The translations under genes were made by a program, and so were the position numbers. A stretch of DNA of 54,610 nt from Clostridiales bacterium (GTDB lineage Bacteria > Bacillota > Clostridia > Christensenellales > Borkfalkiaceae), in contig SVIG01000009.1 in NCBI GenBank assembly GCA_015071005.1, positions 1-54,610 on the forward strand, written 5' to 3'. The notes below the pieces were generated by a model, which was not told the origin of the DNA, searched no databases, and was given only the letters and a program-made list of their open reading frames with translations. Shown piece by piece: positions 4,098 to 54,028 of the stretch (its first letter is position 1; every line of letters begins with the position of its first letter).

Positions 4098-4112
4098 AGG
4101 AGAAAACCTGCT

Positions 4113-4514: not shown

Positions 4515-4520
4515 ATAGTT

Positions 4521-5959: not shown

Positions 5960-5978
5960 TTTTTTTCACCTCAAAGAG

Positions 5979-6012
5979 AAAACGGCTCGGCCCTATGGGG
6001 CAGAGCCGTTTT
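5979..6012 (-). terminator. Hairpin between lipoprotein and pIII-like gene
   Basis: AAAACGGCTC (5979-5988) pairs with GAGCCGTTTT (6003-6012). On the minus strand it follows the lipoprotein stop. The T-run is short, so it may only attenuate read-through into the next gene. Confidence 0.5.
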
Positions 6013-6015
6013 ATT

Positions 6016-7140: not shown

Positions 7141-7155
7141 CTTTTTTTACCTCGC

Positions 7156-7374
7156 TTATTTAGATTCTCTATATTTTTTTACTTTGTTTTGAATTTTGGT
7201 GATTTTATTTCTATCGCCATAGCCTTTGGAATAACCTTTTGAACCCCAAAATTTACTGCCTTCTTTGCCCATTTTTTCGCTATCGTCAAAACCGTTTAAG
7301 TAACCGCGCCGATAGGCACGCTTTATGCGTTCGGATAACTTTTCTTCTTTCTTCTTCGCTTTATCCTTTGCCAT
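7156..7374 (-). CDS. Small basic hypothetical protein (72 aa)
   Basis: A Lys/Arg-rich soluble protein containing AYRRGYLNGFDD, a motif shape also seen in the next gene upstream (AGYRMGYRAALG). I take ATG 7374 as start because GGTGAT precedes it closely; GTG 7383, overlapping the upstream stop by GTGA, is an alternative adding three residues. It lies between the 82-aa basic protein and the lipoprotein. It could be a DNA-binding or structural protein of the prophage. Family not recognised. Confidence 0.6.
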   Translation of the reverse strand: MAKDKAKKKEEKLSERIKRAYRRGYLNGFDDSEKMGKEGSKFWGSKGYSKGYGDRNKITKIQNKVKKYRESK

Positions 7375-7379
7375 AAATA

Positions 7380-7628
7380 TCACCCATGTTTCTTGTTGTA
7401 AATTGCCGATTGTTCGCCAAGTGCTGCACGATATCCCATACGATATCCTGCTGCACAGGCGTTCAACGGTTTACCTGTACGGGAATTTTTCCCCGAACGC
7501 AACTCACGTCCGTAACGTGTTACCTTCCCCGAAGGGGTAAGGAACGTTACTTGTTTACCGCTTGCCGTTCGACAAATGGTAGCTCCTTTGGTCTTTTTTA
7601 CTACGGTCAATTTCTTTTTGCTTGCCAT
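7380..7628 (-). CDS. Small basic hypothetical protein (82 aa)
   Basis: Highly basic (MASKKKLTVVKKTKG start) with a central TPSGKVTRYGRELRSG segment and AGYRMGYRAAL near the C-terminus; no membrane segment. A GGAG ribosome binding site precedes the ATG. It follows the Rep gene after a small CACGGC/GCCGTG hairpin (7674-7691) and is likely co-transcribed with the following 72-aa gene. Charge and position suggest nucleic-acid binding (inference). Confidence 0.62.
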   Translation of the reverse strand: MASKKKLTVVKKTKGATICRTASGKQVTFLTPSGKVTRYGRELRSGKNSRTGKPLNACAAGYRMGYRAALGEQSAIYNKKHG

Positions 7629-7673
7629 AATAATCTCCTTCGCCGTCTTTCCGTGCTGTAATTTTTATTCCTA

Positions 7674-7691
7674 CACGGCTTTCCTGCCGTG
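7674..7691 (-). other. Short hairpin after rep
   Basis: CACGGC (7674-7679) and GCCGTG (7686-7691) form a 6-bp stem just past the rep stop on the minus strand. There is no clear T-run, so it is more likely a processing or stability element than a full terminator. Confidence 0.35.
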
Positions 7692-7699
7692 AATAGGTC

Positions 7700-8965
7700 T
7701 TATTTAATGCGATTTCCTTCGCTGTTTTCTCCGAAGAACAATTTACGCATTTTTTCTAAACACGTTTCTTTTTCTTCATCGGATAAAGTTTGAAATACAC
7801 GACGTAATACCGCAGGTCCGATATATCGGATTTTCTTCTTGCGTTTTTTATTGCTTTGCAAGTCGTTTAAAATTTCCTCGATACAGCTTTGTATGACAAC
7901 AGGCTTTTCACGACGTTGCAACTCTTTCAACAATTCATCAAAAATCATATCTGACATATCTTGCAAATTTGATATATCGCCAACGTCGTTGAAATTGTAT
8001 TCACGCAGGACACCATACGTTTCGTAAACACGCCGATTTTTCAAAGCTTCTTCAAGATAGCAAAAATCTTCGTATTCAAAGATTTTTTCTTTCTTATACG
8101 TGCCTTTTATGGCGTACTTAAAAATTTCGTGGAAATTGCCTTGCGCGTTATCCGCTTTTACGTCAAAGCCGTCTTTATACAATCCGTCCGTAACGCCGTA
8201 AATATCTATGATATTTTGCTTCGTTACCTTGATATCCAACATAAGCAAACACCAAATACGCTGTAACAGCCATTCAAACTTTGAAAAGTACGTAACCTTG
8301 CGTTTATTCGTTACGTAATCATATTTGCCGTTGGAAAAACTGTTTTCTATAACCTTTTCCATATTCGGGGGATTTTTGGAAAGCACAATCATTGTGTGGA
8401 AATGGGGGTGAAAATCATTGCCGTTTTTGCGTTTGCCTGTCGTAATTTCTAACGAACGTACCGCGCCAACGTAACCGTATTGAAAGAAATCAAGTCCTTT
8501 GACTTTCTTTTCACCTTTCAGGTACGCTATCAAACGCCCGAAACGGCTATACATTTTATCCAATGTCCAATTTAGACGTTGCCCCGACACATTCGGTACG
8601 GTGAATACCGTATGGAAAATGTCGTGTGTTTTTTCCAACTGTCGCAAAATGGGGGAAAATAATTGAAAACGCCTTTGCGCTTTCAAACTTTGACATACGT
8701 AACAAAAGGAATCCTGACAGCGCGTTATGCTTTTTATTTGTTTGATACCATGACGAACGTAATAGTTCAAATCCCAAACCTTACTGCAAGCAAGCGTGCG
8801 CTCTGCTTTCTTGCGGTAGGTATCATCGTTGTAATCGTCTGCCATGCGCTCGTAATACTCGCTTTGGTAGACGTTGTACTTTACTTTCGCTTGCAGGTCT
8901 TTGAACCAATCGATACCAAATTCCCATTCAATAGTGCTTTCTTCCCGATTTTTCTTTGAACTCAT
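7700..8965 (-). CDS. rep: HUH rolling-circle replication initiator, pC194/pUB110 (Rep_1) type
   Basis: A 421-residue initiator nicking one origin strand and joining covalently through a tyrosine. Visible motifs, in Rep_1 order: a Cys cluster CQDSFCYVC (residues 83-91), the metal-binding HUH motif HPHFH (186-190), then FKYAIK with the likely catalytic Tyr284 and Lys287, followed by RRVYETYGVLRE. The C-terminal 60 residues are basic. Directly upstream (9025-9068) lie a hairpin and the sequence CTTGATAATA on the same strand, as in pC194-family double-strand origins. The ssDNA-binding-type gene is upstream. A plasmid-type Rep with filamentous-phage assembly genes is a mosaic arrangement. Confidence 0.88.
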   Translation of the reverse strand: MSSKKNREESTIEWEFGIDWFKDLQAKVKYNVYQSEYYERMADDYNDDTYRKKAERTLACSKVWDLNYYVRHGIKQIKSITRCQDSFCYVCQSLKAQRRFQLFSPILRQLEKTHDIFHTVFTVPNVSGQRLNWTLDKMYSRFGRLIAYLKGEKKVKGLDFFQYGYVGAVRSLEITTGKRKNGNDFHPHFHTMIVLSKNPPNMEKVIENSFSNGKYDYVTNKRKVTYFSKFEWLLQRIWCLLMLDIKVTKQNIIDIYGVTDGLYKDGFDVKADNAQGNFHEIFKYAIKGTYKKEKIFEYEDFCYLEEALKNRRVYETYGVLREYNFNDVGDISNLQDMSDMIFDELLKELQRREKPVVIQSCIEEILNDLQSNKKRKKKIRYIGPAVLRRVFQTLSDEEKETCLEKMRKLFFGENSEGNRIK

Positions 8966-9024
8966 ATTTCAACGCTCCGTAGTAAAGATTTTGTTCCAAG
9001 ATTTTGCGGGTGAAGATGATTCTA

Positions 9025-9068
9025 TATTATCAAGGAGGGGGATTATGTGGTTTTCCCCACATAATCCC
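9025..9068 (-). other. Candidate double-strand origin: nick-site-like sequence beside a 12-bp hairpin
   Basis: On the minus strand CTTGATAATA (9034 to 9025) matches the conserved nick-region core remembered for pC194-type plasmids. Beside it GGGATTATGTGG (9039-9050) pairs with CCACATAATCCC (9057-9068). It lies about 60 bp upstream of the Rep start, the expected place for the family. The match is from memory, not alignment. Confidence 0.6.
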
Positions 9069-9096
9069 TTCTTATGAAAAAACCTACGCGATTACC

Positions 9097-9657
9097 TCAC
9101 GCATTGTTTGCCAAATACCGCATTTTAGCAAGATTGCCACGGTATTTAAAGTCGGTACGGTCTTCGGAAGAAAAGTCAATAACCTCAACAGGGATATCGG
9201 CTTCGCCAACCCTGATAAAGAAATTGTACTTTTCGCCGTCTTTGCTTTCCGTCTTTTTCGTTCTCGCAAAAACTTCTACGGGATTGCAGACTTCGCCCTG
9301 CTTGAATGCTTCATAGCTGACCGCAAACATATCCAACAAATCTTCCCTAATACGGAAATCATCATCACGAAGAATATCGTTACCGTCCTCGTCTTTCTTC
9401 ACGCGCATAATAACATTGCCGTCTTTGTCCTTCTTTTCGACAAGCAATTCCTTGCCGTCCTTATCCAACTTCGGCTTGTTCGTTGCAGGGTCAATAACCT
9501 TTTCCAAAACAGCTTCCATTACAGGTTTGCCAAAATAGCAAACACGAATGGGAACCATACCCGACAAGCCTACGCCTTGAAGATACAACGTGCGGTTGAA
9601 ATAATCTTCACCGTTCTTGGTCGTTTTCTTCTCCGTCTTAATAACATAACACTTCAT
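9097..9657 (-). CDS. Probable ssDNA-binding protein (pV-like), 186 aa
   Basis: The protein begins with beta-rich segments (MKCYVIKTEKKTTKNGEDYF) and is adjacent to rep, where filamentous and rolling-circle phages keep their ssDNA-binding protein. A middle stretch (about 55-100) is a charged insertion with three DKDGK/DKDGN/DEDGN repeats that look like calcium-loop motifs. The C-terminal half returns to beta-rich sequence. I see no definite OB-fold signature, so the role is inferred from position and composition. Preceded by a GGAG site; the next upstream gene is separated by a palindrome. Confidence 0.6.
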   Translation of the reverse strand: MKCYVIKTEKKTTKNGEDYFNRTLYLQGVGLSGMVPIRVCYFGKPVMEAVLEKVIDPATNKPKLDKDGKELLVEKKDKDGNVIMRVKKDEDGNDILRDDDFRIREDLLDMFAVSYEAFKQGEVCNPVEVFARTKKTESKDGEKYNFFIRVGEADIPVEVIDFSSEDRTDFKYRGNLAKMRYLANNA

Positions 9658-11580: not shown

Positions 11581-11607
11581 TAAATAGAAAAAAATACAAT
11601 TTCATAT

Positions 11608-11682
11608 ATGGCCCGTTGGTCAAGCGGTTAAGACACCACCCTTTCACGGTGGTAACATGGGTTCGAGTCCCGTACGGGTCAC
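11608..11682 (+). tRNA. tRNA-Glu (TTC), copy 2
   Basis: Same 75-nt sequence as the copy at 11367-11441, TTC anticodon and encoded CCA. Last intact tRNA of the operon; its CCA is followed at once by the terminator hairpin. Confidence 0.95.
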
Positions 11683-11683
11683 C

Positions 11684-11721
11684 AGCAAAAGACACCTGTC
11701 GATAGACAGGTGTCTTTTGCT
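11684..11721 (+). terminator. Terminator of the tRNA operon
   Basis: AGCAAAAGACACCTGTC and its exact complement GACAGGTGTCTTTTGCT flank a 3-4-nt loop, a very long perfect stem with an internal TTTT. It directly follows the last tRNA-Glu CCA. Confidence 0.8.
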
Positions 11722-11983
11722 GTATGCTTCCGTCGGACGAACCCATCGGGTTCGTGCGAGCAAGCTATGCTTGCGACACTCTCCGAGAGGACTCCGCTTG
11801 CGGAGTGTCGGAGATACCCGTACGGGGATGGTGAAGAACACGTTGGTTCGCGCGATGCGATTTGTCGCCGACGCTCTCCGGAAAATACTTGTATTTTCTT
11901 TGGTGCTTGCACCAAGGGTTCTCTTTTAAGGGTGTCGGAGATTCCCGCGAAAAGCTTTGATTTTGGTTAAGGGTCACCAGCAA
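11722..11983 (+). repeat. Palindrome-rich debris: two diverged hairpin units and a tRNA-Glu 3' remnant
   Basis: This non-coding stretch is packed with small perfect palindromes: CGAACCC/GGGTTCG (11738-11754), GCAAGC/GCTTGC (11760-11774), ACTCCGC-TT-GCGGAGT (11791-11806), CCCG-TA-CGGG (11817-11826), GAAAATAC-TT-GTATTTTC (11881-11898) and TTGGTGC-TT-GCACCAA (11900-11915). Two diverged units share ends: GAC(A/G)CTCTCCG at the left and GTGTCGGAGAT(A/T)CCCG at the right (11805-11820 and 11933-11948). It ends with GGGTCACCAGCAAAA, the 3' end of tRNA-Glu plus terminator start, so it is probably derived from decayed tRNA-operon copies. Confidence 0.5.
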
Positions 11984-12016
11984 AAAAAGGATAGGTAAAA
12001 TGCCTATCCTTTTTTA
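11984..12016 (+). terminator. Terminator, copy 1 of a repeated sequence
   Basis: AAAAAAGGATAGG, loop TAAAATG, CCTATCCTTTTTT. The same stem and loop recur at 14648-14682. From here to 12120 (about 100 AT-rich bases) I see nothing functional. Confidence 0.75.
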
Positions 12017-12120
12017 ACTTGTAAAATTCATAATTTGCATTTTTTATATCCATATTTGTATTTTGCATTATTTTCGTAAAATCTCTTGGAAAATATAAAT
12101 ATATTGGTTGAAAAATGGTG

Positions 12121-12351
12121 CTATTCAATATTGAAAATATCGTCGTAGGATACTTTTAGTATTTTCCGCAACAAAATAATTTCATCAGGATATAAATGGC
12201 GTTGTCCAACTTCAATTTTGGCAATAGCGCTTCTTGTAATATCGCAACCGTTTAGTTGTAATTTGGTTGCGACATAGTCTTGTGTGAATCCTGCTTTTTC
12301 TCTTAATTTCCGTAAATTATACCCAATTTTCTTTTCAATAACCGTATTCAT
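12121..12351 (-). CDS. XRE-family transcriptional regulator (76 aa)
   Basis: Start at 12351 is chosen because the helix-turn-helix domain begins there (MNTVIEKKIGYNLRKLREKA); an upstream extension would run through the divergent promoter. The whole protein is one XRE/Cro-type domain: GFTQDYVATKL as helix 2, then TRSAIAKIEVGQRHL as recognition helix and turn, then DEIILLRKILKVSYDDIF, the usual ending of short Clostridia regulators. It faces the zinc-ribbon gene at 12467 across a promoter with two palindromes, so it probably autoregulates and represses that gene. Confidence 0.85.
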   Translation of the reverse strand: MNTVIEKKIGYNLRKLREKAGFTQDYVATKLQLNGCDITRSAIAKIEVGQRHLYPDEIILLRKILKVSYDDIFNIE

Positions 12352-12369
12352 AAAAAACCACCATATTTT

Positions 12370-12448
12370 GCTCTTAAATGAGAGCAAAGCATTGACAATA
12401 TTATATGTATTTGCTATAATAATATTGCACCCATATAGGCGCAATATT
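12370..12448 (+). promoter_or_regulatory. Promoter with flanking palindromes between the XRE regulator and the zinc-ribbon gene
   Basis: TTGACA (12392-12397), 17-bp spacer, TATAAT (12415-12420). GCTCT/AGAGC (12370-12385) lies upstream of the -35 box, and AATATTGC (12421-12428) with GCAATATT (12441-12448) lies immediately downstream of the -10 box. Either could be the operator of the XRE protein. Confidence 0.7.
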
Positions 12449-12466
12449 AACAAAACGGAGAAAATT

Positions 12467-12703
12467 ATGGCTTTAGTAAAATGTGCGGAATGTAAACACT
12501 GGGTTTCTAATAGAGCGATAAAATGTCCGCAGTGTGGGTATGAACCATGGGGAGAGTGTAGGGTTTGCAAATGGTTTGAAAGTCAATCATGGACGGATTG
12601 GGGACGGTGTGGTGCTGTGGAAAAGGATTTTATAAGAAACACTAAAAGCGTATGCCCAGCCGTTATCAAAAAAAGCATAGCCGAATTGCTTAAACTTAAA
12701 TGA
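12467..12703 (+). CDS. Small double zinc-ribbon-like protein (78 aa)
   Basis: Start at 12467 follows an ACGGAG site; a longer frame lies across the promoter. Cys residues come in pairs: CAEC (6-9), CPQC (20-23) and CRVC (31-34), then single Cys at about 48 and 62. The first half resembles a treble-clef zinc ribbon (KCPQCGYEPWG); the second resembles small Cys-rich proteins. No membrane segment. Divergent from an XRE regulator whose operator it probably shares. Function unknown; a DNA- or protein-binding adaptor is plausible. Confidence 0.7.
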   Translation: MALVKCAECKHWVSNRAIKCPQCGYEPWGECRVCKWFESQSWTDWGRCGAVEKDFIRNTKSVCPAVIKKSIAELLKLK

Positions 12704-12710
12704 TGATAAA

Positions 12711-12743
12711 TTAAAAAAGACAGGCAAAACGCCTATCCTTTTT
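12711..12743 (+). terminator. Terminator after the zinc-ribbon gene
   Basis: An imperfect stem, AAAAAGACAGGC and GCCTATCCTTTTT around AAAAC, similar to but degraded from the terminators at 11984 and 14648. Confidence 0.6.
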
Positions 12744-12818
12744 ATATGGCGTTGAGAAACGGTTTTGAATAGATAAAAATAAAAAAAGTTTATTTTATCT
12801 TAAAAAAAGAGTAGAAAA

Positions 12819-12846
12819 TTGACGCTGATTGTGTTATGATTAAGAT
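12819..12846 (+). promoter_or_regulatory. Probable promoter of the phosphoesterase gene
   Basis: TTGACG (12819-12824), 16-bp spacer, TAAGAT (12841-12846). The -10 box is imperfect. Confidence 0.5.
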
Positions 12847-12902
12847 AGAAAATCTTGAATATGTGTAATAAATATTCAAAATTACGGTTTTAAGAGGTTG
12901 GG

Positions 12903-14636
12903 ATGAAAAAATTTCTTACGGCATTGCTCGCGTTTAGCTTGTGCTTTATGACCGCTTGCGGTGGCTCGGGCAAAAGCGACGAGAACGATGTGAGCGATAA
13001 TAGCGTGAGCGTGGGGCAGGATAGTGAAACGAGCGAAAACGTGAAGCCTGAACACGTACACAACCTTATAAAACAAGAAGCAAAAGCGTCTACTTGTACA
13101 AAAAAAGGCAATATCGAGTTTTATTATTGTCCGCGTTGTAAGGGTTATTATTTAGACGAAAACGCAGAGCAAGAAAGCTCGTTTGAGGGTACGCGAGCGC
13201 CTTTGGCACCACATGACGCGACCAAAACAGACGGCTATGCGCCTACCTGCGGTGAAGTGGGGTTGAAAGAACATTGGACGTGTGTGCATTGCTTGGAAAA
13301 GTTTATTGACGAAGAGTGCAGTCAGCACGTTTGGGATACGGATTTGGAAATCCCTGCCCTTGCGCATAAGAATATAACTTATCACGAAGGGTTCCCCGTT
13401 GAAGGGGACAATGATGGTCAACTCTCGCATTGGTATTGCCAGGACTGCGAAGGGTATTACTTGGACGAAAGCTTCACCGAAAGGGTGGAATGGGAGGACG
13501 TTATTTTGTATTCGGCTGTCAATATTCCCGATTTTATCGTAGAGATTCCCGATGGGCGCGATCCTGTTGTGTTGCAGCTTACAGATACGCAAATTATCGA
13601 TGGGGCGCAGGCTCGTCCTGACAAATCTTCTGGGGATAAAATTACCTATGCAACGCCGTTGATTAAGAATTATTGCTACGATTATTTAACGGAAATTATC
13701 CAAGCAACAAAACCCGATTTTATCATCATCACAGGCGACCTTGTCTATGGGGAATATGATGATAACGGTAGCGTTTTGAAGGCGTTCGTAGAGTTTATGG
13801 ACAGTTTCAAGATTAATTGGGCTCCCGTATTCGGTAATCACGAAAACGAAAGCGCGATGGGCGTGGATTGGCAATGCGAACAGCTCGAAAACAGCGAGTA
13901 TTGCTTGTTTGAACAAAAAGAGCTCACGGGCAACGGTAATTATTCGGTTGGGATTATGCAAGGCGGTAAGCTCACGCGCGTGTTTTATATGCTCGATTCG
14001 AACGGTTGTGGCAATCCCAGCGAAGCGACTTTAGAAAACATGCATTTTAGATCTTCGGTGGGGTTTGGTTCCGATCAAATTGAGTGGTACACCAACCAAA
14101 TTACGGAGTTGAAAGCGCTCTCGCCCGATACGAAAATTTCCTTTGCATACCATATTCAGACGTCGGTATTTGGCGAGGCTTTGGAACAATACGGCTTTGT
14201 CCAAAGTCAAAAATACCAAGATTTCTTTATCGATTATTTGGCGAACAAGCAAGCGGGGGATTTCGGTTTTGTCGGTAGACAAATGAAAGATGGATGGGAT
14301 TCGTCTAAAACGGTATTTAACGGTATGAAAGCGCTCGGGGCAGATTCGATTTTCGTCGGACACGAGCATTGCAACAGCGCAAGCGTTATGTTTGAGGGCG
14401 TGCGTTTGCAGTACGGACAAAAATCGAGCGAATACGATCGCTATAATTGCGTAATCGAAGGCGGTGAGATTGCGGGATTTGCAATTTGGAACAAGAGCGG
14501 CACGGCGCTTGTCGGCGGTAGTGTAATCGTCCTTTCGGAAACGGACGGCGGGATCAAGGATGCGTATATTTACTACTGTTCGAACGCAGGTCAAAACGTC
14601 GATTGGGACGCAGTTGCAGAAAAATACACAAAATAA
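12903..14636 (+). CDS. Exported metallophosphoesterase lipoprotein with CxxC repeats
   Basis: A 577-residue lipoprotein (signal ending FMTAC, lipid Cys19). Residues about 50-190 contain Cys-paired repeats (HNLIKQEAKASTC...YYCPRC, PTCGEVGLKEHWTCVHC, YWCQDC-type). From about 220 there is a calcineurin-like phosphoesterase domain: LQLTDTQ (metal site 1), FIIITGDLVYGE, VFGNHENE, FAYHIQ and FVGHEH. The enzyme hydrolyses phosphate esters outside the cell; the substrate cannot be told. The next gene encodes an exported nuclease with its own promoter, so both may serve nucleic-acid or phosphate scavenging. The cell wall role of the repeats is unknown. Confidence 0.87.
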   Translation: MKKFLTALLAFSLCFMTACGGSGKSDENDVSDNSVSVGQDSETSENVKPEHVHNLIKQEAKASTCTKKGNIEFYYCPRCKGYYLDENAEQESSFEGTRAPLAPHDATKTDGYAPTCGEVGLKEHWTCVHCLEKFIDEECSQHVWDTDLEIPALAHKNITYHEGFPVEGDNDGQLSHWYCQDCEGYYLDESFTERVEWEDVILYSAVNIPDFIVEIPDGRDPVVLQLTDTQIIDGAQARPDKSSGDKITYATPLIKNYCYDYLTEIIQATKPDFIIITGDLVYGEYDDNGSVLKAFVEFMDSFKINWAPVFGNHENESAMGVDWQCEQLENSEYCLFEQKELTGNGNYSVGIMQGGKLTRVFYMLDSNGCGNPSEATLENMHFRSSVGFGSDQIEWYTNQITELKALSPDTKISFAYHIQTSVFGEALEQYGFVQSQKYQDFFIDYLANKQAGDFGFVGRQMKDGWDSSKTVFNGMKALGADSIFVGHEHCNSASVMFEGVRLQYGQKSSEYDRYNCVIEGGEIAGFAIWNKSGTALVGGSVIVLSETDGGIKDAYIYYCSNAGQNVDWDAVAEKYTK

Positions 14637-14647
14637 GAAGATGAAGC

Positions 14648-14682
14648 AAAAAAAGGATAGGTAAAATGCCTATCCTTTTTTG
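14648..14682 (+). terminator. Terminator, copy 2 of the repeated sequence
   Basis: AAAAAAAGGATAGG, TAAAATG loop, CCTATCCTTTTTT, identical in stem and loop to 11984-12016, ending in TTTTTTGC. Confidence 0.8.
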
Positions 14683-14706
14683 CTTGCGTTATCGTGTAAA
14701 AAAGTC

Positions 14707-14735
14707 TTGACTTATACGCGCGTTCGTGTTACAAT
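14707..14735 (+). promoter_or_regulatory. Promoter of the nuclease gene
   Basis: TTGACT (14707-14712), 17-bp spacer, TACAAT (14730-14735). Transcription would start about 30 nt before ATG 14769. Confidence 0.7.
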
Positions 14736-14768
14736 ATTTTATGGAAATAATATTTACGAAGGTCAATT

Positions 14769-16259
14769 ATGAAAAAATTTGCTAAATTTTCCTTGTTTGG
14801 CTTGATAGCGGCGCTTGCTTTTACGGCTTGCTTGCCGATTTTTGCGCGCAAAACTGCGCCTATCGAAGCGGACGCGGCGGTGTCGGGGCCTATGAACTTG
14901 GGTAAGGCGACAGGTTATACGGAGGCTTCGGACGTAAAATACGTGACGTCGGGTAAATACGTTGCAAACTGGGGCGCGCGCGACGAAGATTGCGTGTTCT
15001 TGAGCGAGTACGCGGAAGATTTCTATACGGGTAGCTATACCTATCAAACCCTTTCGAAAACGTCGGGCGGTACGTCGGGTTCAAATGCACCGACGAGCAC
15101 GCTTTATAAATCTTTGCAAACCTTGATGACTTCTAAACAAACGTACCAAACGAGCTATAATGCAACCCGAGATTTGTTTAAGTACACCGATTGCGTGAAT
15201 AGCAATTATACCTATATTTCGTCCTTCTATTCGGGCGTGCGAATTTCTGGTACGTGGGACGGCGGTAGTACGTGGAACCGTGAACATACTTGGCCGAATA
15301 GTAAGGGTGACGCAAGCGGTAATGGCGAAAACGACATTACGATGCTTCGTCCCACCTCTGTAAGTGAAAATTCTAGCCGTGGTAATAAGGCATACGGTAC
15401 AACCACAAATAGCAACTATTACAATCCTAACGGAGAAGGTCAAAACGTGCGCGGCGATTGCGCAAGAATTTTACTTTTCGTATATACGCGTTGGGGTAAC
15501 ACAAGTAGCATGTGGGGCGCGAGCGGTGTAATAGAAAGCTTGGACGTCTTGCTCGATTGGATGGAAGAAGACCCCGTAGACACGTGGGAAATGGGTAGAA
15601 ACGACGCCGTGCAGTCGATTACGGGCACGAGAAACGTTTTCGTTGACTATCCCGAATACGCGTTTAAGCTCTTCGGAAGAGCCGTGCCTGCGGACATGGT
15701 TACCCCGTCCAAGGCATCGAGAGGGGAATCGGTGACTCCGCCTACGAGTGAGAAACCCGAACCGCCTGTGAGCGAAGAACCCGAAGTTCCGCCTACGAGT
15801 GAGAAACCCGAGCCGCCTACGAGCGAACAACCGCCCGTGAGTGAAGAACCTGAAGTTCCCGAGCATAATTTTATTGATTGGGTGCAAACGAAAGCCCCGA
15901 CGGAAACGGAAGCAGGGGAAGAATACCGCATTTGCACGAAGTGTAATTTAACGGAAACTCGTGAAATTCCTGCGTTGGGCGCAGGGAAGTGCCCTGACGG
16001 TACGGAACATCAATTTAGTGAATGGGTAGAAACGAAAGCACCTACGGAAACGGCAAAGGGCGAAGAATATCGCATTTGCACCAAGTGCTATGAATCGCAA
16101 ACCCGTGAAATTCCTGCATTGGGCGGCGGCACAAATCCCTCGACGAGCGCAGGGGGAGACGAAAGCGGTTTGGGTTGTGGCGCGACGATTGTAACGCCTA
16201 TGTTTGTCACGCTTTTGGTAGCGGCGGCAGGCGTAATGCTAAAAAAGAAAGAACAGTAA
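14769..16259 (+). CDS. Exported endonuclease I family nuclease with CxxC repeats and membrane anchor
   Basis: A 496-residue secreted nuclease. A signal peptide (about 1-35) is followed by the endonuclease I domain: the His-metal finger motif WNREHTWPNSKG at 169-180 and NDITMLRPT about ten residues later. A Pro/Glu/Ser-rich linker (325-365, repeats of TSEKPEPP) leads to two repeats of the H..F..W..TKAPTET..GEEYRICTKC..T.TREIPALG type. A C-terminal hydrophobic helix with a Lys tail (VAAAGVMLKKKEQ) anchors it at the membrane; no LPXTG is seen. It degrades external DNA or RNA without sequence specificity. It follows a phosphoesterase lipoprotein. Confidence 0.9.
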   Translation: MKKFAKFSLFGLIAALAFTACLPIFARKTAPIEADAAVSGPMNLGKATGYTEASDVKYVTSGKYVANWGARDEDCVFLSEYAEDFYTGSYTYQTLSKTSGGTSGSNAPTSTLYKSLQTLMTSKQTYQTSYNATRDLFKYTDCVNSNYTYISSFYSGVRISGTWDGGSTWNREHTWPNSKGDASGNGENDITMLRPTSVSENSSRGNKAYGTTTNSNYYNPNGEGQNVRGDCARILLFVYTRWGNTSSMWGASGVIESLDVLLDWMEEDPVDTWEMGRNDAVQSITGTRNVFVDYPEYAFKLFGRAVPADMVTPSKASRGESVTPPTSEKPEPPVSEEPEVPPTSEKPEPPTSEQPPVSEEPEVPEHNFIDWVQTKAPTETEAGEEYRICTKCNLTETREIPALGAGKCPDGTEHQFSEWVETKAPTETAKGEEYRICTKCYESQTREIPALGGGTNPSTSAGGDESGLGCGATIVTPMFVTLLVAAAGVMLKKKEQ

Positions 16260-16263
16260 TAAC

Positions 16264-16295
16264 AAAAAAACGGACGGTTTTCCGTCCGTTTTTTG
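16264..16295 (+). terminator. Terminator of the nuclease gene
   Basis: AAAAAAACGGACGG and CCGTCCGTTTTTT around a TTTT loop. Confidence 0.85.
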
Positions 16296-16304
16296 TATAA
16301 AGTC

Positions 16305-16333
16305 TTGAAAACGTAATATTTATATGTTATAAT
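16305..16333 (+). promoter_or_regulatory. Promoter of the unknown lipoprotein gene
   Basis: TTGAAA (16305-16310), 17-bp spacer, TATAAT (16328-16333). The AAGGAG of the next gene follows at 16344-16349. Confidence 0.75.
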
Positions 16334-16357
16334 AAAGAAAAAAAAGGAGTGCTTACT

Positions 16358-17905
16358 ATGCAAAAACGGATTTTTTCGCTATTGTTAGGTGCGGCGTTGC
16401 TGTTTGGCGGTTGCGGTGGAAAATTTGGCGAAAAGCATAACGCGACGGACAAATACGAATCGGTCGCAACGTTTACGGCGCACTACGATTACGGTAACCA
16501 TATCGAAGGGGAAACGACGCTGCTTTTGGATGATTTACTCCTTTTCTTCAATCCTGCTGATTACGGAATCGATAGAATTGTGGCAGGGGAACAAGTCAAG
16601 GTCTATTACGACGGTGTGCTTGAATGGCAGGACACCTATCCTGCCGTCGTTTGGTCGGAAAATCTTGAAATTGGCGACGTGGAAATTGTCAAAGCCAAGC
16701 TTATCGAGTTTGAAGTAATGGAAAATCCAGGCGGGGGATATTCCCTTGCCGATAAGACGGATTGGGTAACCAGGTACGAGATGAAAGTGCCCAATCAATA
16801 TATTTTTGACGCGAGCGGCTCTTATGCACCCCTTGATGCGAGTGACGTGGGTAAGACGATTTACGGCACTTATCAAGATATGGACAACGTACAAATTTAC
16901 GGTTTGTACGACTATAATCCATACGGCGATTTTACGCCGAGTGAGCACGTGTGCAATTTGGCAATCGTGGGCGGTTATGAAGCTACCTGTCAAGCAAAAG
17001 GTTTGCAGGTAATCGGCTGTACTTCTTGCTCGTATATCCAAGAACAAACCGTGCTTGACAAAGTGGAATGTGAGCTTGCCGAAAATGGAAAATGCAAGTG
17101 GTGCGGGCAAACCTTAGAGGATTTGCTTCCTTGGGTTAGGACTTTGGAATGTGAGTTTATTTCCGTCACGCAAATACGAGAGTATTACGGCGTTGCCCCT
17201 GGGCATTTTAAGGAAGTGACGAGAAGTGAGAGCCAAGCGGATATGGAAACGATGCTTGCTTATTTGAAAAATTGTTCGCTTGTGCAAATTACCGACGAAA
17301 CGAAAACGCAAATCTCGGGCGGCGGTGGCGTAACGATGGAGTTTGAAACGGAAAACGGTACGCATACGCTCACTCGCGCCAACGGATTTTTCCGCATCGA
17401 CGGCAAGTATTACGAGTCCAAAACGCCGATTCCTGAGCTCTCGGACGGCGAAGCTTGTCATGCCTTCGTCACGTACACGGGTAGGTCGGAATTGTATATT
17501 AACGGTGCAAAAATGCAAATCCAAAACGGCTTGATTGATAAGATTCATTTCCGTCTTGTAGAAGGCGTGATGGTGCAACCCGAGCTTATCGGCGGTACGT
17601 ATCTTCTTACGTTTGATTATGAAGGAAAAATCGAACTGTATTCGGCAAAATATTTTGTTCATAACGGCAATTTATACGAAGTGGTAGGGACGGCGGATTT
17701 CTCGCAGATATTTGAAGAGTATCCAAGAACGGAAGACGGCTATAAAACGTTATGCGAGAATTGCCGAAAAACCGATGAGGGTAGTATTTACCGCCAAGAA
17801 TACGGCGCAAATCTTTGCGACGGCTGTTATCAAGAGTTTGAGGAAGTGATTATGCTGCCCTGCTGTTTTTGCGGCTCGTACGTTTGCAATGGCTGTCAGG
17901 GATAA
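16358..17905 (+). CDS. Lipoprotein of unknown function with Cys-pair motifs (515 aa)
   Basis: ATG 16358 is taken as start because AAGGAG precedes it by eight bases; a GTG nine bases upstream is inside the binding site. The lipoprotein signal ends in LLFGGCGG (about Cys20). A repeat of the window's Cys-pair type lies near 205-250 (HVCNLAIVGGYEATC then GCTSC and CKWC). Two long beta-rich regions follow, and the C-terminus has a second zinc-like cluster (CENC, CDGC, CCFCGS, CNGC). No catalytic motif is visible. It belongs with the neighbouring exported proteins at 12903 and 14769, though it has its own promoter and terminator. Confidence 0.75.
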   Translation: MQKRIFSLLLGAALLFGGCGGKFGEKHNATDKYESVATFTAHYDYGNHIEGETTLLLDDLLLFFNPADYGIDRIVAGEQVKVYYDGVLEWQDTYPAVVWSENLEIGDVEIVKAKLIEFEVMENPGGGYSLADKTDWVTRYEMKVPNQYIFDASGSYAPLDASDVGKTIYGTYQDMDNVQIYGLYDYNPYGDFTPSEHVCNLAIVGGYEATCQAKGLQVIGCTSCSYIQEQTVLDKVECELAENGKCKWCGQTLEDLLPWVRTLECEFISVTQIREYYGVAPGHFKEVTRSESQADMETMLAYLKNCSLVQITDETKTQISGGGGVTMEFETENGTHTLTRANGFFRIDGKYYESKTPIPELSDGEACHAFVTYTGRSELYINGAKMQIQNGLIDKIHFRLVEGVMVQPELIGGTYLLTFDYEGKIELYSAKYFVHNGNLYEVVGTADFSQIFEEYPRTEDGYKTLCENCRKTDEGSIYRQEYGANLCDGCYQEFEEVIMLPCCFCGSYVCNGCQG

Positions 17906-17923
17906 AATAAACGTTGTTTTTTC

Positions 17924-17969
17924 ACTCCGCGAAAGGAAAAATTTTTCCTTTCGCGGAGTTTGTTTTTTA
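17924..17969 (+). terminator. Perfect 36-bp palindromic terminator
   Basis: ACTCCGCGAAAGGAAAAA and its complement (17924-17959), no loop beyond the T-A centre, followed by TTGTTTTTTA. Confidence 0.85.
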
Positions 17970-17986
17970 TTCCGCTTTCAAAATAC

Positions 17987-18015
17987 TTTACAATCCGTGT
18001 TTTTTTCGGTATAAT
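17987..18015 (+). promoter_or_regulatory. Promoter of the methyltransferase-pseudouridine synthase pair
   Basis: TTTACA (17987-17992), 17-bp spacer, TATAAT (18010-18015). Confidence 0.65.
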
Positions 18016-18085
18016 AGGATAGATAATTGTGTTATTATGCCTTCATGCGCGTATTATGCGAGGGGAAAGGCGAATAGGAAAGCAT

Positions 18086-18958
18086 ATGAAGATTTCAAAA
18101 AATTGGAAGGATTATTCGATCATTGCAACGGGCGACGGGTACAAGCTCGAGCGTTGGAAGGACGTATATTTACTCCGTCCCGATCCGCAAGTGATTTGGT
18201 CGTCGCAAATCGACCTTTTCTCATATCCCAAGCTCAACGCGTATTATAAGCGCAGCGAAAAGGGCGGCGGCGGTTGGAAGGTGCTCCGTCCCTTCCCCGA
18301 TGAGTGGAACGTGGATTACGGCGAGCTGGATATTTCCTTCAAGATCAAGCCGATGGGCTTTAAGCATACGGGGCTTTTCCCCGAACAAGCGGTGAATTGG
18401 GAGTACATGACCAAGCTCATCAAAAACGCGGGTAGACCGATCAAGGTCTTGAACTTATTCGCGTACACGGGTGGCGCGACTGTGGCTTGCGCCAAAGCTG
18501 GAGCGCAAGTAACCCACGTAGACGCGGCGAAGGGTATGGTTGAACGTGCAGGCGAAAATGCCCGTCTTTCGGGGATTGAAACGGGTATCCGTTATATCGT
18601 CGACGATTGCTTGAAATTCGTCCAGAGAGAGATTCGCCGTGGGAATAAGTACGACGCGATCATTATGGATCCGCCGAGCTACGGCAGAGGCCCGAACGGG
18701 GAAATGTGGAAGATTGAAAATAATCTCTATCCCTTCGTAGAGCTTTGCTCGCAGGTGCTTTCGGAGAATCCGCTGTTCGTGCTGATCAATAGCTACACGA
18801 CGGGTTTGCAACCGATGGTTTTGAAAAACATTTTGCAGTTGACGTTGAAAAATTACAAAGGCAGTGTGGATGCCTACGAGGTAGGGATTCAAACGGAAGA
18901 AGGGATTTCGCTCCCTTGCGGCGCAGGAGGTATATTCGTCCATGACGGAAACGACTAA
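18086..18958 (+). CDS. Class I SAM-dependent methyltransferase, RlmI-like (COG1092-type)
   Basis: The start at 18086 has AGGAAA upstream and gives 290 residues; an upstream TTG would extend it. The N-terminal part (about 1-95) is beta-rich. The SAM domain starts with VLNLFAYTGGATVACAKAGA (motif I, near 118), has THVDAAKGMVERAGENARL and the catalytic MDPPSYGRGP (motif IV, near 195). The DPPSYG version is typical of 23S rRNA m5C/m7G methyltransferases of the RlmI/RlmK group, so rRNA is the likely substrate. It overlaps the next gene, an RluA pseudouridine synthase, by 17 bases, making a two-gene RNA-modification operon. Confidence 0.82.
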   Translation: MKISKNWKDYSIIATGDGYKLERWKDVYLLRPDPQVIWSSQIDLFSYPKLNAYYKRSEKGGGGWKVLRPFPDEWNVDYGELDISFKIKPMGFKHTGLFPEQAVNWEYMTKLIKNAGRPIKVLNLFAYTGGATVACAKAGAQVTHVDAAKGMVERAGENARLSGIETGIRYIVDDCLKFVQREIRRGNKYDAIIMDPPSYGRGPNGEMWKIENNLYPFVELCSQVLSENPLFVLINSYTTGLQPMVLKNILQLTLKNYKGSVDAYEVGIQTEEGISLPCGAGGIFVHDGND

Positions 18959-50460: not shown

Positions 50461-50545
50461 GGGCAGATTCCAGAGCGGCCAAATGGATCAGACTGTAAAT
50501 CTGACGTCTTCGACTTCGGTGGTTCGAATCCACCTCTGCCCACCA
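50461..50545 (+). tRNA. tRNA-Tyr (GTA) with long variable arm
   Basis: An 85-nt class II cloverleaf with acceptor GGGCAGA/TCTGCCC, GTA anticodon between CAGAC and GTCTG-type strands and a long variable arm (CGTCTTCGACTTCGG), CCA encoded. Its 3' end borders the integrative element and is the probable attachment site of the integrase at 51005 (inference). Confidence 0.93.
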
Positions 50546-50592
50546 AAACACGACAATTATGCAGAAAAAATGTATAAAAGTCGTGTTTTTCT
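50545..50592 (+). terminator. Terminator of the second tRNA operon
   Basis: AAAACACGAC (50545-50554) pairs with GTCGTGTTTT (50580-50589), with a 25-nt loop and following T-run. Confidence 0.65.
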
Positions 50593-50639
50593 TTACTTTT
50601 TTGAATAAATATTCACTCAAAAATGCGTTTTTGATGGGG

Positions 50640-50663
50640 TTTGGGGAACAATTTGGGGAACAA
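50640..50663 (+). repeat. Two tandem copies of TTTGGGGAACAA
   Basis: The 12-mer TTTGGGGAACAA is repeated exactly at 50640-50651 and 50652-50663, just inside the element next to tRNA-Tyr. Direct 12-mers at a tRNA-integrase border are candidate arm-type binding sites. Confidence 0.55.
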
Positions 50664-50715
50664 AATCACTCAAATTATTCCTATGATAGGATATATTTAA
50701 GCCCGCTAAAAACGA

Positions 50716-50744
50716 TTGACAAATATGCCCTGTTTTGATATACT
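50716..50744 (+). promoter_or_regulatory. Promoter of the mini-ORF unit
   Basis: TTGACA (50716-50721), 17-bp spacer, TATACT (50739-50744). Start near 50751. Confidence 0.75.
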
Positions 50745-50791
50745 ATTTTTGCCGCCGTCGTATAACAGGAATAAAAGGTAGTCCTATATAA

Positions 50792-50878
50792 ATGTTTACT
50801 AATGCTTGGTCAACTTTACATAGAACTAAAAGGAATCCAAGGACAAATAAATCTAAGGAGGACTTGCCGAATGCGTAA
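50792..50878 (+). CDS. Mini-ORF 1 (28 aa), possible leader peptide
   Basis: ATG 50792 to TAA 50876-50878, with AAAGG about a dozen bases upstream. The product starts MFTNAWSTLHRTKRNPRTNK and ends KSKEDLPNA. Its last codons overlap the start of mini-ORF 2 by eight bases in another frame, so translation of the first may expose or restart at the second, as with leader peptides. Whether it is translated is unproven. Confidence 0.45.
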   Translation: MFTNAWSTLHRTKRNPRTNKSKEDLPNA

Positions 50879-50924
50879 AATTAAAATTCGCATAAAGGGT
50901 ACGATTCGTATCCGCCGTCGTTAA
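50871..50924 (+). CDS. Mini-ORF 2: 17-residue alternating cationic peptide
   Basis: ATG 50871 to TAA 50922-50924, preceded by a perfect AAGGAGG (50855-50861) at nine bases. Product MRKIKIRIKGTIRIRRR: hydrophobic Ile alternates with Lys or Arg on both sides of a KGT turn, so it would form an amphipathic beta-hairpin, a pattern known from cationic antimicrobial and membrane-active peptides. Nine of seventeen residues are basic. The strong binding site and dedicated promoter and terminator argue for real expression. Role could be a toxin, nucleic-acid binder or regulator (inference). Confidence 0.55.
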   Translation: MRKIKIRIKGTIRIRRR

Positions 50925-50935
50925 TCGCGGTTGTG

Positions 50936-50966
50936 CCAGAGGGTGTTAACGCACCTTCTGTTTTTT
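50936..50966 (+). terminator. Terminator of the mini-ORF unit
   Basis: CAGAGGGTG and CACCTTCTG pair with one G-T wobble, followed by TTTTTT. It ends the transcript just inside the right inverted repeat. Confidence 0.75.
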
Positions 50967-51004
50967 ATTTAGCGGGCTTAAAGTGCAAAGTTGAAGTGCA
51001 ATTC

Positions 51005-52231
51005 TTATGCACTTAAAGGAAACTCTACTTTATCCATTTGCTTTCTCATAAATTCATCTGAGAAATGGGTGTATACCTTTCCAACAAGTCTTTGCGGGCT
51101 ATCTCCCATCCAAATATCTACAATATCTGGACGGACATATTGCTGACAAACGGTTGCAAAAGTATGTCGCAAACAGTAAGCGGTTTTTTCTGCAAGCAAT
51201 TCTTTCATGGTATCGTTTATCTTTAATCGGTGTAAATCAGTCGTTAAAGGCTTATCCCAGTCAATCAATCCCTGTGCCTGTGTAGGTATGGGGATTTTTT
51301 TATACTCGATTTTACCATTCTTGCGCTTCCGATTACGAGCGATTAAGAACTCACCCTCGCGGTGGGTTTCTTCATCAATTTCGCAGGGACGCAAACCGAA
51401 GAAATAGAGGACATAGGCAAACTGTCTAATAGAATCATATTTTACGGCTTTAATACGCTCTAAAAACGCTTTAACTTCGTCTTCGGATAAAGCCTCGCGG
51501 GTTTGTCTTTCTGAACGTTTAAACTTAATTAGAGCCACTGGATTATGCTGAATAATTCCACTTGCAATTGCATACTTGAATATGCCATTGAAAAGAGTGC
51601 GTAATTCTTCGTGTTTTCGTGGTTTTACGTCTTTCATCACGCCGTCGATGTCAATGGTACGTACATCAGCTAATGCCTTTTGTTGGAGTTCTATTGGTAA
51701 CGATAAAAAATTTGTTTCAAATCTACGTAATTCCTTATCTGTAACAGTTCCTTTTTTATACTGATACCACTCCTTAAAGATTGCTTCCAGAGTATTATCA
51801 TTGGAGTTGTATGTCGCTGTTCTGTATTTTCCAATTTCTTTTGGCGTTGTTTTAAATAAAAATTTTTCTTTTGCTCGACTTAAATCTGTTGAGGATGCTG
51901 TAATATTGTAACCGTTTGAGCGGTATCGAATTTCATAGCAAAATGAGTTTCTTCCGCTTTCTCTTTTAATAATTTTTGCGGCGAGCCCATTGGCTATAAA
52001 TTCCTTTTTGAAGGTTTCTGCCATTTTTGAAATCTCCTTTTTTGTAAATTTCAAAGATGTGGTTGCAGACTTTGTATGTAATACGGCACCCTCATTATTT
52101 TGTTCAAGCTCAACAACTCTTCGCGCAGCTTCGCTAAATTCAGCTGAGAGTTTTAATGCTTCATTTCTTGTGTTAATCATCATCAACTTAGTAGTTAAAT
52201 TGATGATTGTGTCCGACACTTTTTCACTCAT
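51005..52231 (-). CDS. int: Tyrosine-family site-specific integrase
   Basis: A 408-residue recombinase. An N-terminal helical region and an arm-binding-like beta domain (about 80-125: SFCYEIRYRSNGYNITAS), a core-binding helical domain (about 135-225), then the catalytic domain: box I YFFGLRPCEID with the Arg, box II YCLRHTFATV with Arg and His (the usual first His is Tyr here) and the nucleophile Tyr in VGKVYTHFSD. It catalyses integration and excision of the element, probably at tRNA-Tyr. The gene starts beside the mini-ORF unit. Confidence 0.92.
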   Translation of the reverse strand: MSEKVSDTIINLTTKLMMINTRNEALKLSAEFSEAARRVVELEQNNEGAVLHTKSATTSLKFTKKEISKMAETFKKEFIANGLAAKIIKRESGRNSFCYEIRYRSNGYNITASSTDLSRAKEKFLFKTTPKEIGKYRTATYNSNDNTLEAIFKEWYQYKKGTVTDKELRRFETNFLSLPIELQQKALADVRTIDIDGVMKDVKPRKHEELRTLFNGIFKYAIASGIIQHNPVALIKFKRSERQTREALSEDEVKAFLERIKAVKYDSIRQFAYVLYFFGLRPCEIDEETHREGEFLIARNRKRKNGKIEYKKIPIPTQAQGLIDWDKPLTTDLHRLKINDTMKELLAEKTAYCLRHTFATVCQQYVRPDIVDIWMGDSPQRLVGKVYTHFSDEFMRKQMDKVEFPLSA

Positions 52232-52294: not shown

Positions 52295-52753
52295 CTATTT
52301 GTAAAGCTGAAACTTCTTGCTGATTTTGTGTGCAATTTCGTCTGGCAATGGCTTAAATCCAATGCAGGTCAAAACTCTACCTATCCCATTTTCGTCAACT
52401 TCTTCAGGGGTTAATTCTGTTAGGCAACAATCCTTAATCAAGAAGTAATCAATATCTTCCTTTAGTCCAAGTTCGTTAGCAATAGTAATTGCTTTTTCTA
52501 ATTGATTCTTATTCTTCGCTTCGCAAATTGTTTTTGTAAATATCCCGCAAATCCATTTCTCATATACATCTTTATCTAGTTGTATATATGGAATATAATA
52601 TAGAACTTCATTGCCGTTTCTGCAAACTCTATCAACGTTTTTTGGATTTTGAAACCTTTTTGTTAAAAAAGCAAGAGATGCGTGGCTTACTTGAGCAGCC
52701 AACTTACCAGGCGACATATTCAAGTCTTTGCGAGCTATTATTAACTGTCTCAT
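52295..52753 (-). CDS. Peptidyl-tRNA hydrolase 2 (Pth2)-like protein
   Basis: A 152-residue protein beginning RQLIIARKDLNMSPGKLAAQVSHASLAFL, the substrate-binding start of Pth2, where Lys, Gln and His contact the peptidyl-tRNA. The C-terminal GRVLTCIGFKPLPDEIAHKISKKFQLY matches the Pth2 ending (IGPAPxExID). Pth2 is the archaeal and eukaryotic hydrolase type; bacteria usually rely on Pth. In a mobile element at a tRNA gene it may act on tRNA or defend against it, or be repurposed (inference). Starts where the next gene ends (ATGA overlap). Confidence 0.78.
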   Translation of the reverse strand: MRQLIIARKDLNMSPGKLAAQVSHASLAFLTKRFQNPKNVDRVCRNGNEVLYYIPYIQLDKDVYEKWICGIFTKTICEAKNKNQLEKAITIANELGLKEDIDYFLIKDCCLTELTPEEVDENGIGRVLTCIGFKPLPDEIAHKISKKFQLYK

Positions 52754-53007: not shown

Positions 53008-53065
53008 ATAATCTCCTATATGTCTAAATATATTCTATGTTTTATAAAAATATAAAGCCTTAGCC

Positions 53066-53971
53066 TTATATTTTATTTGTATATATCGAGTTAACCCATT
53101 TATAATACTGTTCTCGATAATTAAAAGCAGAGTTTTCAGAGCATCCCATTATCGAACAAATCTTCTCTAAAAGTGTTCTGTTTGATTTATCCTGATAGAT
53201 TTTTACAAACAAGGCATTCTTTCTCAAATTTCTGAAAATGATAGCAACATTTCTTTCCTTTGGAATAAGAGAATTAAACCTGCTTATAGCCAAAATGATG
53301 TGATTTTCTTCGACTCTTGGGCAAGAAGTGGTAGGACGGAATAAAAAAGATTCGTCTCCCTTAAATACTCTGACTTTCCCACTCGGTAATCCTCGATAAC
53401 TGTCAAGATATCGCAGGGCTTTAAGTGCTGTATAGGCACTGTCTTCTATGGCGATCATTTCTCCGTTATGTTCAAGCAAATACCTCGTATTATCGTCAGA
53501 AATCAATTCGTTTTTTTTGAGAACGGCAATTTCCCTAGGGGATAATCCGTGCCAACCTAAAACAACAATAGCCTTTACCGTCGCAAGATCTGCATTTGGA
53601 TTATAACCAGCCATTAAAGAAGCGCCGATTTCATCGATGAGATTTAATATGCTATCCAAGTCTCTAAAATAACAGGATGTTTGCTGAGAATCCATTACCT
53701 CTTCTCTTGTCGGTACTGTTCCAAGCACACCAAACCAATCAAAAAGATTAAGCAAATATTCTTTAATCTTTTGATAGTGTTGTCTTGAAATGCTATTTGT
53801 AGACTGCAAAAAGAAGGTACGGCATAAAAACTCTTTATCTAACAATCTAGTTGATGGATTGTCTTCTTTTAAGAGAGCATCCACGTAGGACAGGAATCTT
53901 TCTACATCGTTTTCTCTTTGTGCGTTTGCGTTAGGATAATACTTTTCAATAAATGCTTTTGAATCAATCAT
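53066..53971 (-). CDS. Degenerate tyrosine-recombinase homologue (301 aa)
   Basis: The layout follows tyrosine recombinases: an N-terminal helical core-binding domain (about 1-95, ending in DWFGVLGTV) and a catalytic-type domain. Where box I normally has LGLRxxEL there is GWHGLSPREIAVLKKNEL, with no aligned Arg; where box II has HxLRHTFA there is FRNLRKNALFVKIY. A C-terminal Tyr-rich segment (AFNYREQYYKWV) follows. So the fold seems present but key catalytic residues are replaced, suggesting a DNA-binding or regulatory paralogue of the integrase. Transcribed from a promoter embedded in a palindromic operator. Confidence 0.65.
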   Translation of the reverse strand: MIDSKAFIEKYYPNANAQRENDVERFLSYVDALLKEDNPSTRLLDKEFLCRTFFLQSTNSISRQHYQKIKEYLLNLFDWFGVLGTVPTREEVMDSQQTSCYFRDLDSILNLIDEIGASLMAGYNPNADLATVKAIVVLGWHGLSPREIAVLKKNELISDDNTRYLLEHNGEMIAIEDSAYTALKALRYLDSYRGLPSGKVRVFKGDESFLFRPTTSCPRVEENHIILAISRFNSLIPKERNVAIIFRNLRKNALFVKIYQDKSNRTLLEKICSIMGCSENSAFNYREQYYKWVNSIYTNKI

Positions 53972-53990: not shown

Positions 53991-54028
53991 ATTATACAAC
54001 ATTTTTAGACACAAGTCAAGATGTTGTA
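53991..54028 (-). promoter_or_regulatory. Promoter embedded in an 8-bp palindromic operator
   Basis: Minus strand: TTGACT (54019 to 54014), 17-bp spacer, TATAAT (53996 to 53991). TACAACAT (53995-54002) and ATGTTGTA (54021-54028) form an inverted repeat overlapping the -10 side and flanking the -35 box, so a bound repressor would block polymerase. Confidence 0.7.

Follow-up and report, generated by a model that had tools for sequence, protein, structure and literature searches.

Type I toxin-antitoxin toxins are small and hydrophobic, as in hok/sok with its overlapping mok ORF. Prophage “moron” genes are independent transcription units that lie at the edge of an integrated element and are lacking from its relatives (PMC7067206). 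D-IK8, the D-form of the designed β-sheet peptide IK8, disrupts membranes, and IK8 itself is synthetic, eight residues long, and applied externally (PMC4942614). The repressor MrpR of SPbeta binds SPBRE, a repeated element (PMC10516654). For SroF of phi3T, structure entries are titled as a complex with the antirepressor Sar.

The probable 17-codon gene examined here, carried by a small integrative element beside tRNA-Tyr in an uncultured gut-type bacterium, lies in a window of 54,610 bases, which is one complete contig from a draft genome of 1.69 Mb. As in hok/sok, a very short ORF is accompanied by an overlapping upstream ORF and a ribosome-binding site predicted to be partly paired; unlike hok/sok, the window unit has no antisense promoter-like site by simple consensus scan, and its upstream ORF is not clearly conserved. 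A small hydrophobic toxin of type I was rejected, as 9 of the 17 residues are Lys or Arg. As with moron genes (PMC7067206), the unit has an apparent promoter of its own, sits at an element edge antisense to neighboring genes, and is missing in related elements; it differs in that its predicted product is a 17-residue peptide for which the searches found no relative. The peptide shares with IK8 an alternation of Ile with Lys/Arg, a cationic character, and hydrophobic side chains on alternate residues (PMC4942614), but is 17 residues long and gene-encoded, with a central Lys-Gly-Thr, a C-terminal Arg run, and no export signal. A sequence-only reading of this DNA had likened the peptide to membrane-active β-hairpin peptides; the residue alternation does match that of D-IK8 (PMC4942614); the β-hairpin itself is putative.

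Organization of the peptide gene unit

Toward the right end of the window, a tRNA cluster (Asp-Phe-Thr-Tyr) is followed by the unit and then, on the minus strand, by genes for an integrase, Pth2, an 85-aa protein, and a 301-aa protein. Over 4,233 bp the window is matched at 100% identity by IMG/VR contig L009, which extends 5.3 kb beyond the end of the window; G096, a genome of another genus, carries a second copy of the peptide gene. Features of the unit and its surroundings are as follows.

50461–50545, plus strand: tRNA-Tyr (ARAGORN), whose 3′ end serves as attachment site; L009 shows 28 bp of this end again 6,002 bp away, at the far end of the element
50640–50663: direct repeat TTTGGGGAACAA, two copies, probably arm-type sites of the integrase; the far end of the element has a similar pair, TGGGGAACA
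50696–50710: left arm of the inverted repeat, perfect over 15 bp; missing in G096
50716–50744, plus strand: sigma-A type promoter-like site, TTGACA-17-TATACT; G096 counterpart TTGACA-17-TATAAT
50792–50878, plus strand: upstream 28-codon mini-ORF overlapping the start of the peptide ORF, of doubtful coding status (from sequence and translation)
50855–50861, plus strand: Shine-Dalgarno sequence AAGGAGG, 9 nt before the ATG; last three bases predicted to pair with the 5′ leader, first four mostly open
50871–50924, plus strand: 17-codon ORF plus stop, ATG at 50871, conserved peptide MRKIKIRIKGTIRIRRR; 13 of 17 residues identical in G096, with coding tests
50937–50967, plus strand: intrinsic terminator-like hairpin (10-pair stem, 50937–50960) and T-run, with a counterpart in G096
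50968–50982: right arm of the inverted repeat, perfect over 15 bp, exact complement of the left arm
51005–52231, minus strand: tyrosine integrase of the 6.0-kb element (Pfam PF22022; PHROG 1)
52295–52753, minus strand: peptidyl-tRNA hydrolase 2 (Pth2) gene of the element (Pfam PF01981, E 3.7e-20)

The unit had been placed between tRNA-Tyr (50461–50545) and the integrase (51005–52231, minus strand), which is right, and the peptide gene is convergent with that integrase. The 17-residue peptide ORF behind a perfect AAGGAGG was likewise borne out by the sequence (50871–50924, with AAGGAGG nine bases upstream). The promoter-like site matches the consensus at 11 of 12 positions, has a TG before the −10 box, and was the sole one found by consensus scan in 50540–51010; since shuffled sequences averaged 1.6 such sites, the evidence for a promoter is the quality of the match and not the count. 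The terminator scan found one site against a shuffle mean of 0.4. In MRKIKIRIKGTIRIRRR, 9 of 17 residues are Lys or Arg, giving a net side-chain charge of +9 (+8 for the G096 peptide), and at both loci the residues alternate between cationic and hydrophobic with a net positive charge. The stretch CCGCCGTCGT occurs twice, once where the transcript is expected to begin (50752–50761) and once at the end of the peptide ORF (50912–50921).

Just within both ends of the element, L009 carries paired GGGGAACA repeats, which are probably integrase arm sites. Past the element come another integrase, which shares 66% identity with the first, a phage minor head protein, and a small protein that by eye resembles helix-turn-helix repressors, so that the 6.0-kb element stands in tandem with a prophage. 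A satellite-helper relation between the two is possible. The att-to-integrase gap of the tandem prophage itself is without the peptide unit. Over L009 positions 1–9505, element and prophage, with related integrases, lie in tandem at tRNA-Tyr with arm repeats that differ (TTTGGGGAACAA vs TTTGGTGAACAA). An element-borne Pth2 is also present in viral contig L154 (69% identical), and the host has a PF01195 Pth of its own.

The inverted repeat

The unit had been described as 287 bp bounded by perfect 15-bp terminal inverted repeats, and the repeat is present as described: TTTAAGCCCGCTAAA at 50696–50710 and its complement at 50968–50982 agree over 15 of 15 bp with an outer length of 287 bp. No other perfect 15-bp inverted repeat with an arm spacing of 20 to 400 bp occurs in the 54,610-base window, and when the window was simulated 60 times under a Markov-1 model, 2 simulations contained one or more; it is therefore modestly beyond chance window-wide, and more so as the exact flanks of a transcription unit. 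As a design, the “inverted-repeat cassette” was not supported by the comparison. The 15-bp repeat was not found in the G096 locus, and the exact 15-mer pair is single-copy in its own 94%-complete genome, so that it is incidental to the gene and forms no defining part of it; a multi-copy repeat was rejected for the same single occurrence. The 15-mer was found in 63 IMG/VR stretches, with both arms only in L009, whose locus is identical to the window, and no target duplication was seen by eye in the flanks of the repeat-bound unit.

A second copy in another genus and evidence for coding

One independent homolog was found, on contig SVHO01000008.1 of G096 (a Clostridiales MAG). Its peptide, MAKIKIKVKGTLRIRRR, is identical to MRKIKIRIKGTIRIRRR at 13 of 17 residues; the unit matches by blastn at 74% over 90 bases (E 6e-8), and the peptide search gave E 0.0011. 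AAGGAGG likewise lies nine bases upstream, and consensus scans returned a promoter-like site matching at 12 of 12 positions and a terminator-like site. The unit's own promoter and terminator, as claimed in the sequence-only reading, are thus represented at both loci by promoter-like and terminator-like sites from consensus scans. A simple consensus scan also gave a minus-strand promoter-like site in the G096 unit and none in the window unit. The peptide frame, whose loss or interruption in homologous loci that reading had taken as counting against it, is kept at this one independent locus.

The G096 gene occupies the same position as the window gene, directly within the att end of its element, which is another one, ∼7.5 kb long and integrated at the rlmD 3′ end. 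Membership in integrative elements, also claimed earlier, accordingly holds for both copies, each just inside an att end of a different element. The G096 element is bounded by a 24/30 repeat of the rlmD end, with paired TGTCCAC repeats within both ends; the left TGTCCAC pair overlaps a terminator-like hairpin (6770–6797), so the repeats taken for arm sites in G096 may be a terminator instead. No match to the window's integrase was found in the G096 element, and the two elements share relatives of 301-aa, 85-aa, and 270-aa proteins.

Between the two ORFs, 13 of 54 bases differ without gaps, distributed over codon positions 1, 2, and 3 as 4, 2, and 7. When 13 changes were placed at random in codons 2 to 12, starting from either sequence, 1 and 0 of 50,000 trials preserved the peptide to the same degree; for codons 2 to 17 the numbers were 3 and 4 of 50,000, and a further simulation of 13 changes gave 1 of 20,000. 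Each set of 50,000 trials included 11,582 to 18,327 that introduced stops. The true frame scores highest of the three (64 vs 32 and 44). Because the observed substitutions leave the peptide much better preserved than chance would, the 17-codon ORF is probably translated and under selection, the conservation being that of a single comparison between two independent sequences. Over its final 18 nt the ORF does not differ between the window and G096, and this invariance makes an RNA or DNA constraint possible for the 3′ part. The inverted repeat aside, the comparison indicates a gene that is probably real and conserved beyond the window locus.

RNA folding and the upstream mini-ORF

The predicted fold of the window transcript is better than those of 200 of 200 shuffles (z −2.8), whereas that of the G096 transcript is within the ordinary range (z −1.2; as many as 24 of 200 shuffles were equally stable). 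In the window, the last three bases of AAGGAGG are predicted to pair, at 0.97 to 0.99, with a leader segment directly before the 28-codon ORF, while the central GG is predicted open (pairing 0.07–0.08); in G096, predicted pairing of the ribosome site is split among partners. Damping of translation through partial pairing of the ribosome site with the leader is weakly supported, since the G096 transcript is not exceptionally structured, its pairing is split, and the central GG of the window site is open. There is a hint that ribosomes on the 28-codon ORF could open the ribosome site, as in translational coupling. Of the two overlapping mini-ORFs noted in the sequence-only reading, both exist, with an 8-base overlap, but the upstream one is not clearly conserved, as its ATG in G096 falls downstream of the −10 box but short of the point where transcription is expected to start. 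Its coding status is doubtful.

Distribution of the peptide gene

By peptide search, the gene occurs in 2 of 398 family genomes (its own and G096). Blastn of the unit against 151 family genomes gave four matches, to its own genome, G096, G041, and G106, of which the last two were rejected as copies, being only promoter-like stretches. A match in G025 (E 0.53, third of three at E up to 1 in 398 family genomes) proved on reading not to be a 17-codon gene. A profile search of 396 order genomes returned 21 matches at E up to 1, all except its own at E of at least 0.02; two of the 21 lacked loci and were left out of reading, and the 19 further loci that were read hold no comparable gene. The pattern KGT-x-R-x-RRR-stop was found in IMG/VR only in L009, identical to the window, and in six stretches among 84,980 GTDB species genomes, one being the G096 contig and the other five having no comparable short ATG ORF. 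An N-terminal pattern gave nine IMG/VR stretches, comparable only in L009, and the exact 18-mer of the ORF end gave two, L009 and one unrelated. Blastn of the unit produced two weak phage matches (E 0.3 and 0.9) and no plasmid match. These are fast, first-look searches that may miss divergent copies. Literature searches returned nothing on this peptide gene.

Relatives of the integrase at E up to 1e-60 are present in 40 of 398 family genomes (49 matches), and 30 borders were fetched, up to 600 bp each. The sequence-only reading had proposed searching integrase-tRNA borders for the peptide; the frame is conserved in the G096 element, and 28 of the 29 readable integrase borders are without the gene, the remaining one being its own. 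ARAGORN found a tRNA in 24 borders, starting 109 to 165 bases past the integrase stop in 16 and at least 244 bases past it in 8 (460 at its own border), and these eight long gaps indicate that the gap accepts extra DNA. Fourteen other borders, including the other seven long ones, were read and hold no comparable gene. The integrase-tRNA-Cys gaps of L142 and L147 are both filled, by eye, by a similar block without an obvious gene. A scan of 1.04 Mb of loci, which counts overlapping copies, for ATG ORFs of 10 to 46 codons preceded by a ribosome site and at least half Lys/Arg returned the window peptide (seven overlapping loci) and one unrelated 11-codon ORF; the G096 peptide (8/17 Lys/Arg) falls just below this cut. 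Mimicry of the first strand of ribosomal protein S10 was rejected, since the 13 top-ranking local matches listed for the window do not include that strand; eleventh among them, at a score of 24 and level with unrelated frames, is a stretch from the interior of S10.

The 301-aa protein and a repeated operator-like motif

Three further features lie at the right end of the window.

53021–53039, plus strand: 19-bp operator-like motif TGTCTAAATATRTTNTAYA, one mismatch
53066–53971, minus strand: 301-aa protein with a predicted tyrosine-recombinase fold (by model, MrpR/YopR/SroF repressors and Cre rank together), common to G096 and phage-like contigs
53993–54011, minus strand: 19-bp operator-like motif, one mismatch, just upstream of the 301-aa gene

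The model of the 301-aa protein, built from three sequences, has a pLDDT of 70.7; YopR/MrpR and SroF top the Foldseek lists with Cre tied, at TM-scores of 0.32 to 0.43, and by sequence the protein has no match among solved structures (best E 0.095, unrelated). The motif TGTCTAAATATRTTNTAYA was written from sites in L009 and G096. At up to three mismatches it occurs twice in the window, four times in L009, five times in the G096 element (with one further three-mismatch site in G096 outside the element), six times in viral contig L154, and three times in L086, where chance means are 0.01 to 0.2 per source. In each of four sources, the window element, G096, L154, and L086, one site directly precedes the 301-aa gene. 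In the phage-like region of L086, a 296-aa ORF (14935–15825) sits beside the 301-aa relative; from its sequence it is a candidate Thg1-type tRNA guanylyltransferase. The 301-aa gene with its motif looks like an MrpR-type repressor regulon: a modeled tyrosine-recombinase fold is combined with a repeated intergenic motif, as for MrpR with SPBRE (PMC10516654). It differs from SPbeta MrpR and phi3T SroF in that the protein, a putative DNA binder, has no sequence-level match to solved structures and Cre-type recombinases score equally. At up to three mismatches, the motif is missing from both peptide units. Degenerate operator-like sites lie upstream of both (four mismatches at 6742 in G096, five at 50685 in the window) and are near chance, 13 of 200 random 411-bp stretches reaching four mismatches.

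Discussion

That the unit is a cargo gene of integrative elements encoding a conserved peptide is likely. Consensus scans and the element bounds place a promoter-like and a terminator-like site of its own within the element, and related elements lack it, judged on the 29 readable integrase borders and the neighboring prophage border. The locus would then be an accessory, moron-type independent transcription unit located in the space that separates the attachment site from the element's last gene, transcribed from the integrated element free of the element's own putative repressor, with translation possibly damped by a ribosome site partly paired with the leader. Given the missing export signal, any action of the peptide would be from inside the cell. 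The Lys/Arg-Ile alternation and central Lys-Gly-Thr would form a cationic, two-strand amphipathic hairpin that may bind the inner membrane face or nucleic acids, and abundant peptide could slow or kill the cell or block invading phage. Such an inhibitory mechanism is tentative in itself; accessory peptide cargo with inhibition as the leading hypothesis has, in our estimate, a probability of about 0.5. A strong promoter combined with a strong ribosome site is not what would be expected for a highly toxic product, and no immunity or antisense gene was recognized at the peptide loci. It is rather unlikely that the peptide is a full natural counterpart of IK8, i.e., an unexported, 17-residue cationic β-hairpin acting as a post-transcriptionally damped suicide or anti-phage effector from a self-contained unit in elements with different integration sites.

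Several alternatives were weighed against peptide cargo. A chance ORF in a chance repeat-flanked spacer would suit the very narrow distribution (2/398 family genomes), but recurrence of promoter-like site, ribosome site, ORF, and terminator in the distinct G096 element already makes this unlikely, and we consider it highly improbable. Equally hard to credit is a minigene like lambda bar, in which the short ORF, on being translated, would tie up tRNA in the form of peptidyl-tRNA and the element's Pth2 would serve as antidote: Pth2 is encoded two genes away and a literature on minigenes and Pth exists, yet 17 codons is long for drop-off. The antidote role was rejected, as the G096 element has no Pth2 match, L154 has Pth2 without the peptide, and both hosts have a PF01195-family Pth. 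A mobile cassette bounded by terminal inverted repeats, either MITE-like or an invertible segment, in which the gene is a chance passenger would account for perfect repeats flanking the unit exactly, modestly beyond chance, and for related borders without the unit. This is quite unlikely considering the single copy in a 94%-complete genome, the occurrence of both arms in 1 of 63 IMG/VR 15-mer stretches (the identical L009 locus), the lack of a flanking target duplication by eye, and the missing repeats in G096. Unlikely too, though less so, is that what is conserved is a structured small RNA that has a promoter and a terminator of its own, with an open frame that is incidental or a minor by-product; the well-folding window transcript, a GGGUAC...GUAUCC hairpin within the ORF and a terminator common to both loci, and the identical last 18 nt of the ORF are consistent with it, but the differences are commonest at third positions with the peptide kept, the perfect ribosome site and its spacing are equal at both loci, and the G096 transcript is within the shuffle range.

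The main rival to an intracellular inhibitor, which we favor, is a regulatory peptide that binds nucleic acid or a regulator, e.g., as antirepressor of the MrpR-like 301-aa protein or as accessory factor at the arm sites, and thereby tunes excision or repression. It owes this rank to the 301-aa protein encoded by both peptide-bearing elements, whose modeled fold ranks with MrpR and SroF, and the SroF-Sar complex, as named in structure entry titles, offers a parallel; moreover, the unit promoter lies ∼40 to 60 bp from the presumed arm-site repeats at the element end at both loci. However, relatives of the 301-aa protein occur without a recognizable peptide gene in L154 (L155 being the same DNA), L086, L087, and L088 as far as these were fetched, 28 of 29 readable integrase borders (up to 600 bp) lack the gene, and a positive peptide is not an obvious partner for a DNA-binding surface. 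We regard regulation as a real but minority possibility.

Annotation usually skips genes this short. Here comparative evidence, beyond an eye-catching pattern, favors a probably real 17-codon gene carried by small integrative elements. If growth-inhibiting or anti-phage, its product would be among the smallest such effectors and a natural analog of designed antimicrobial peptides; if it serves in regulation, it would represent a minimal regulator.
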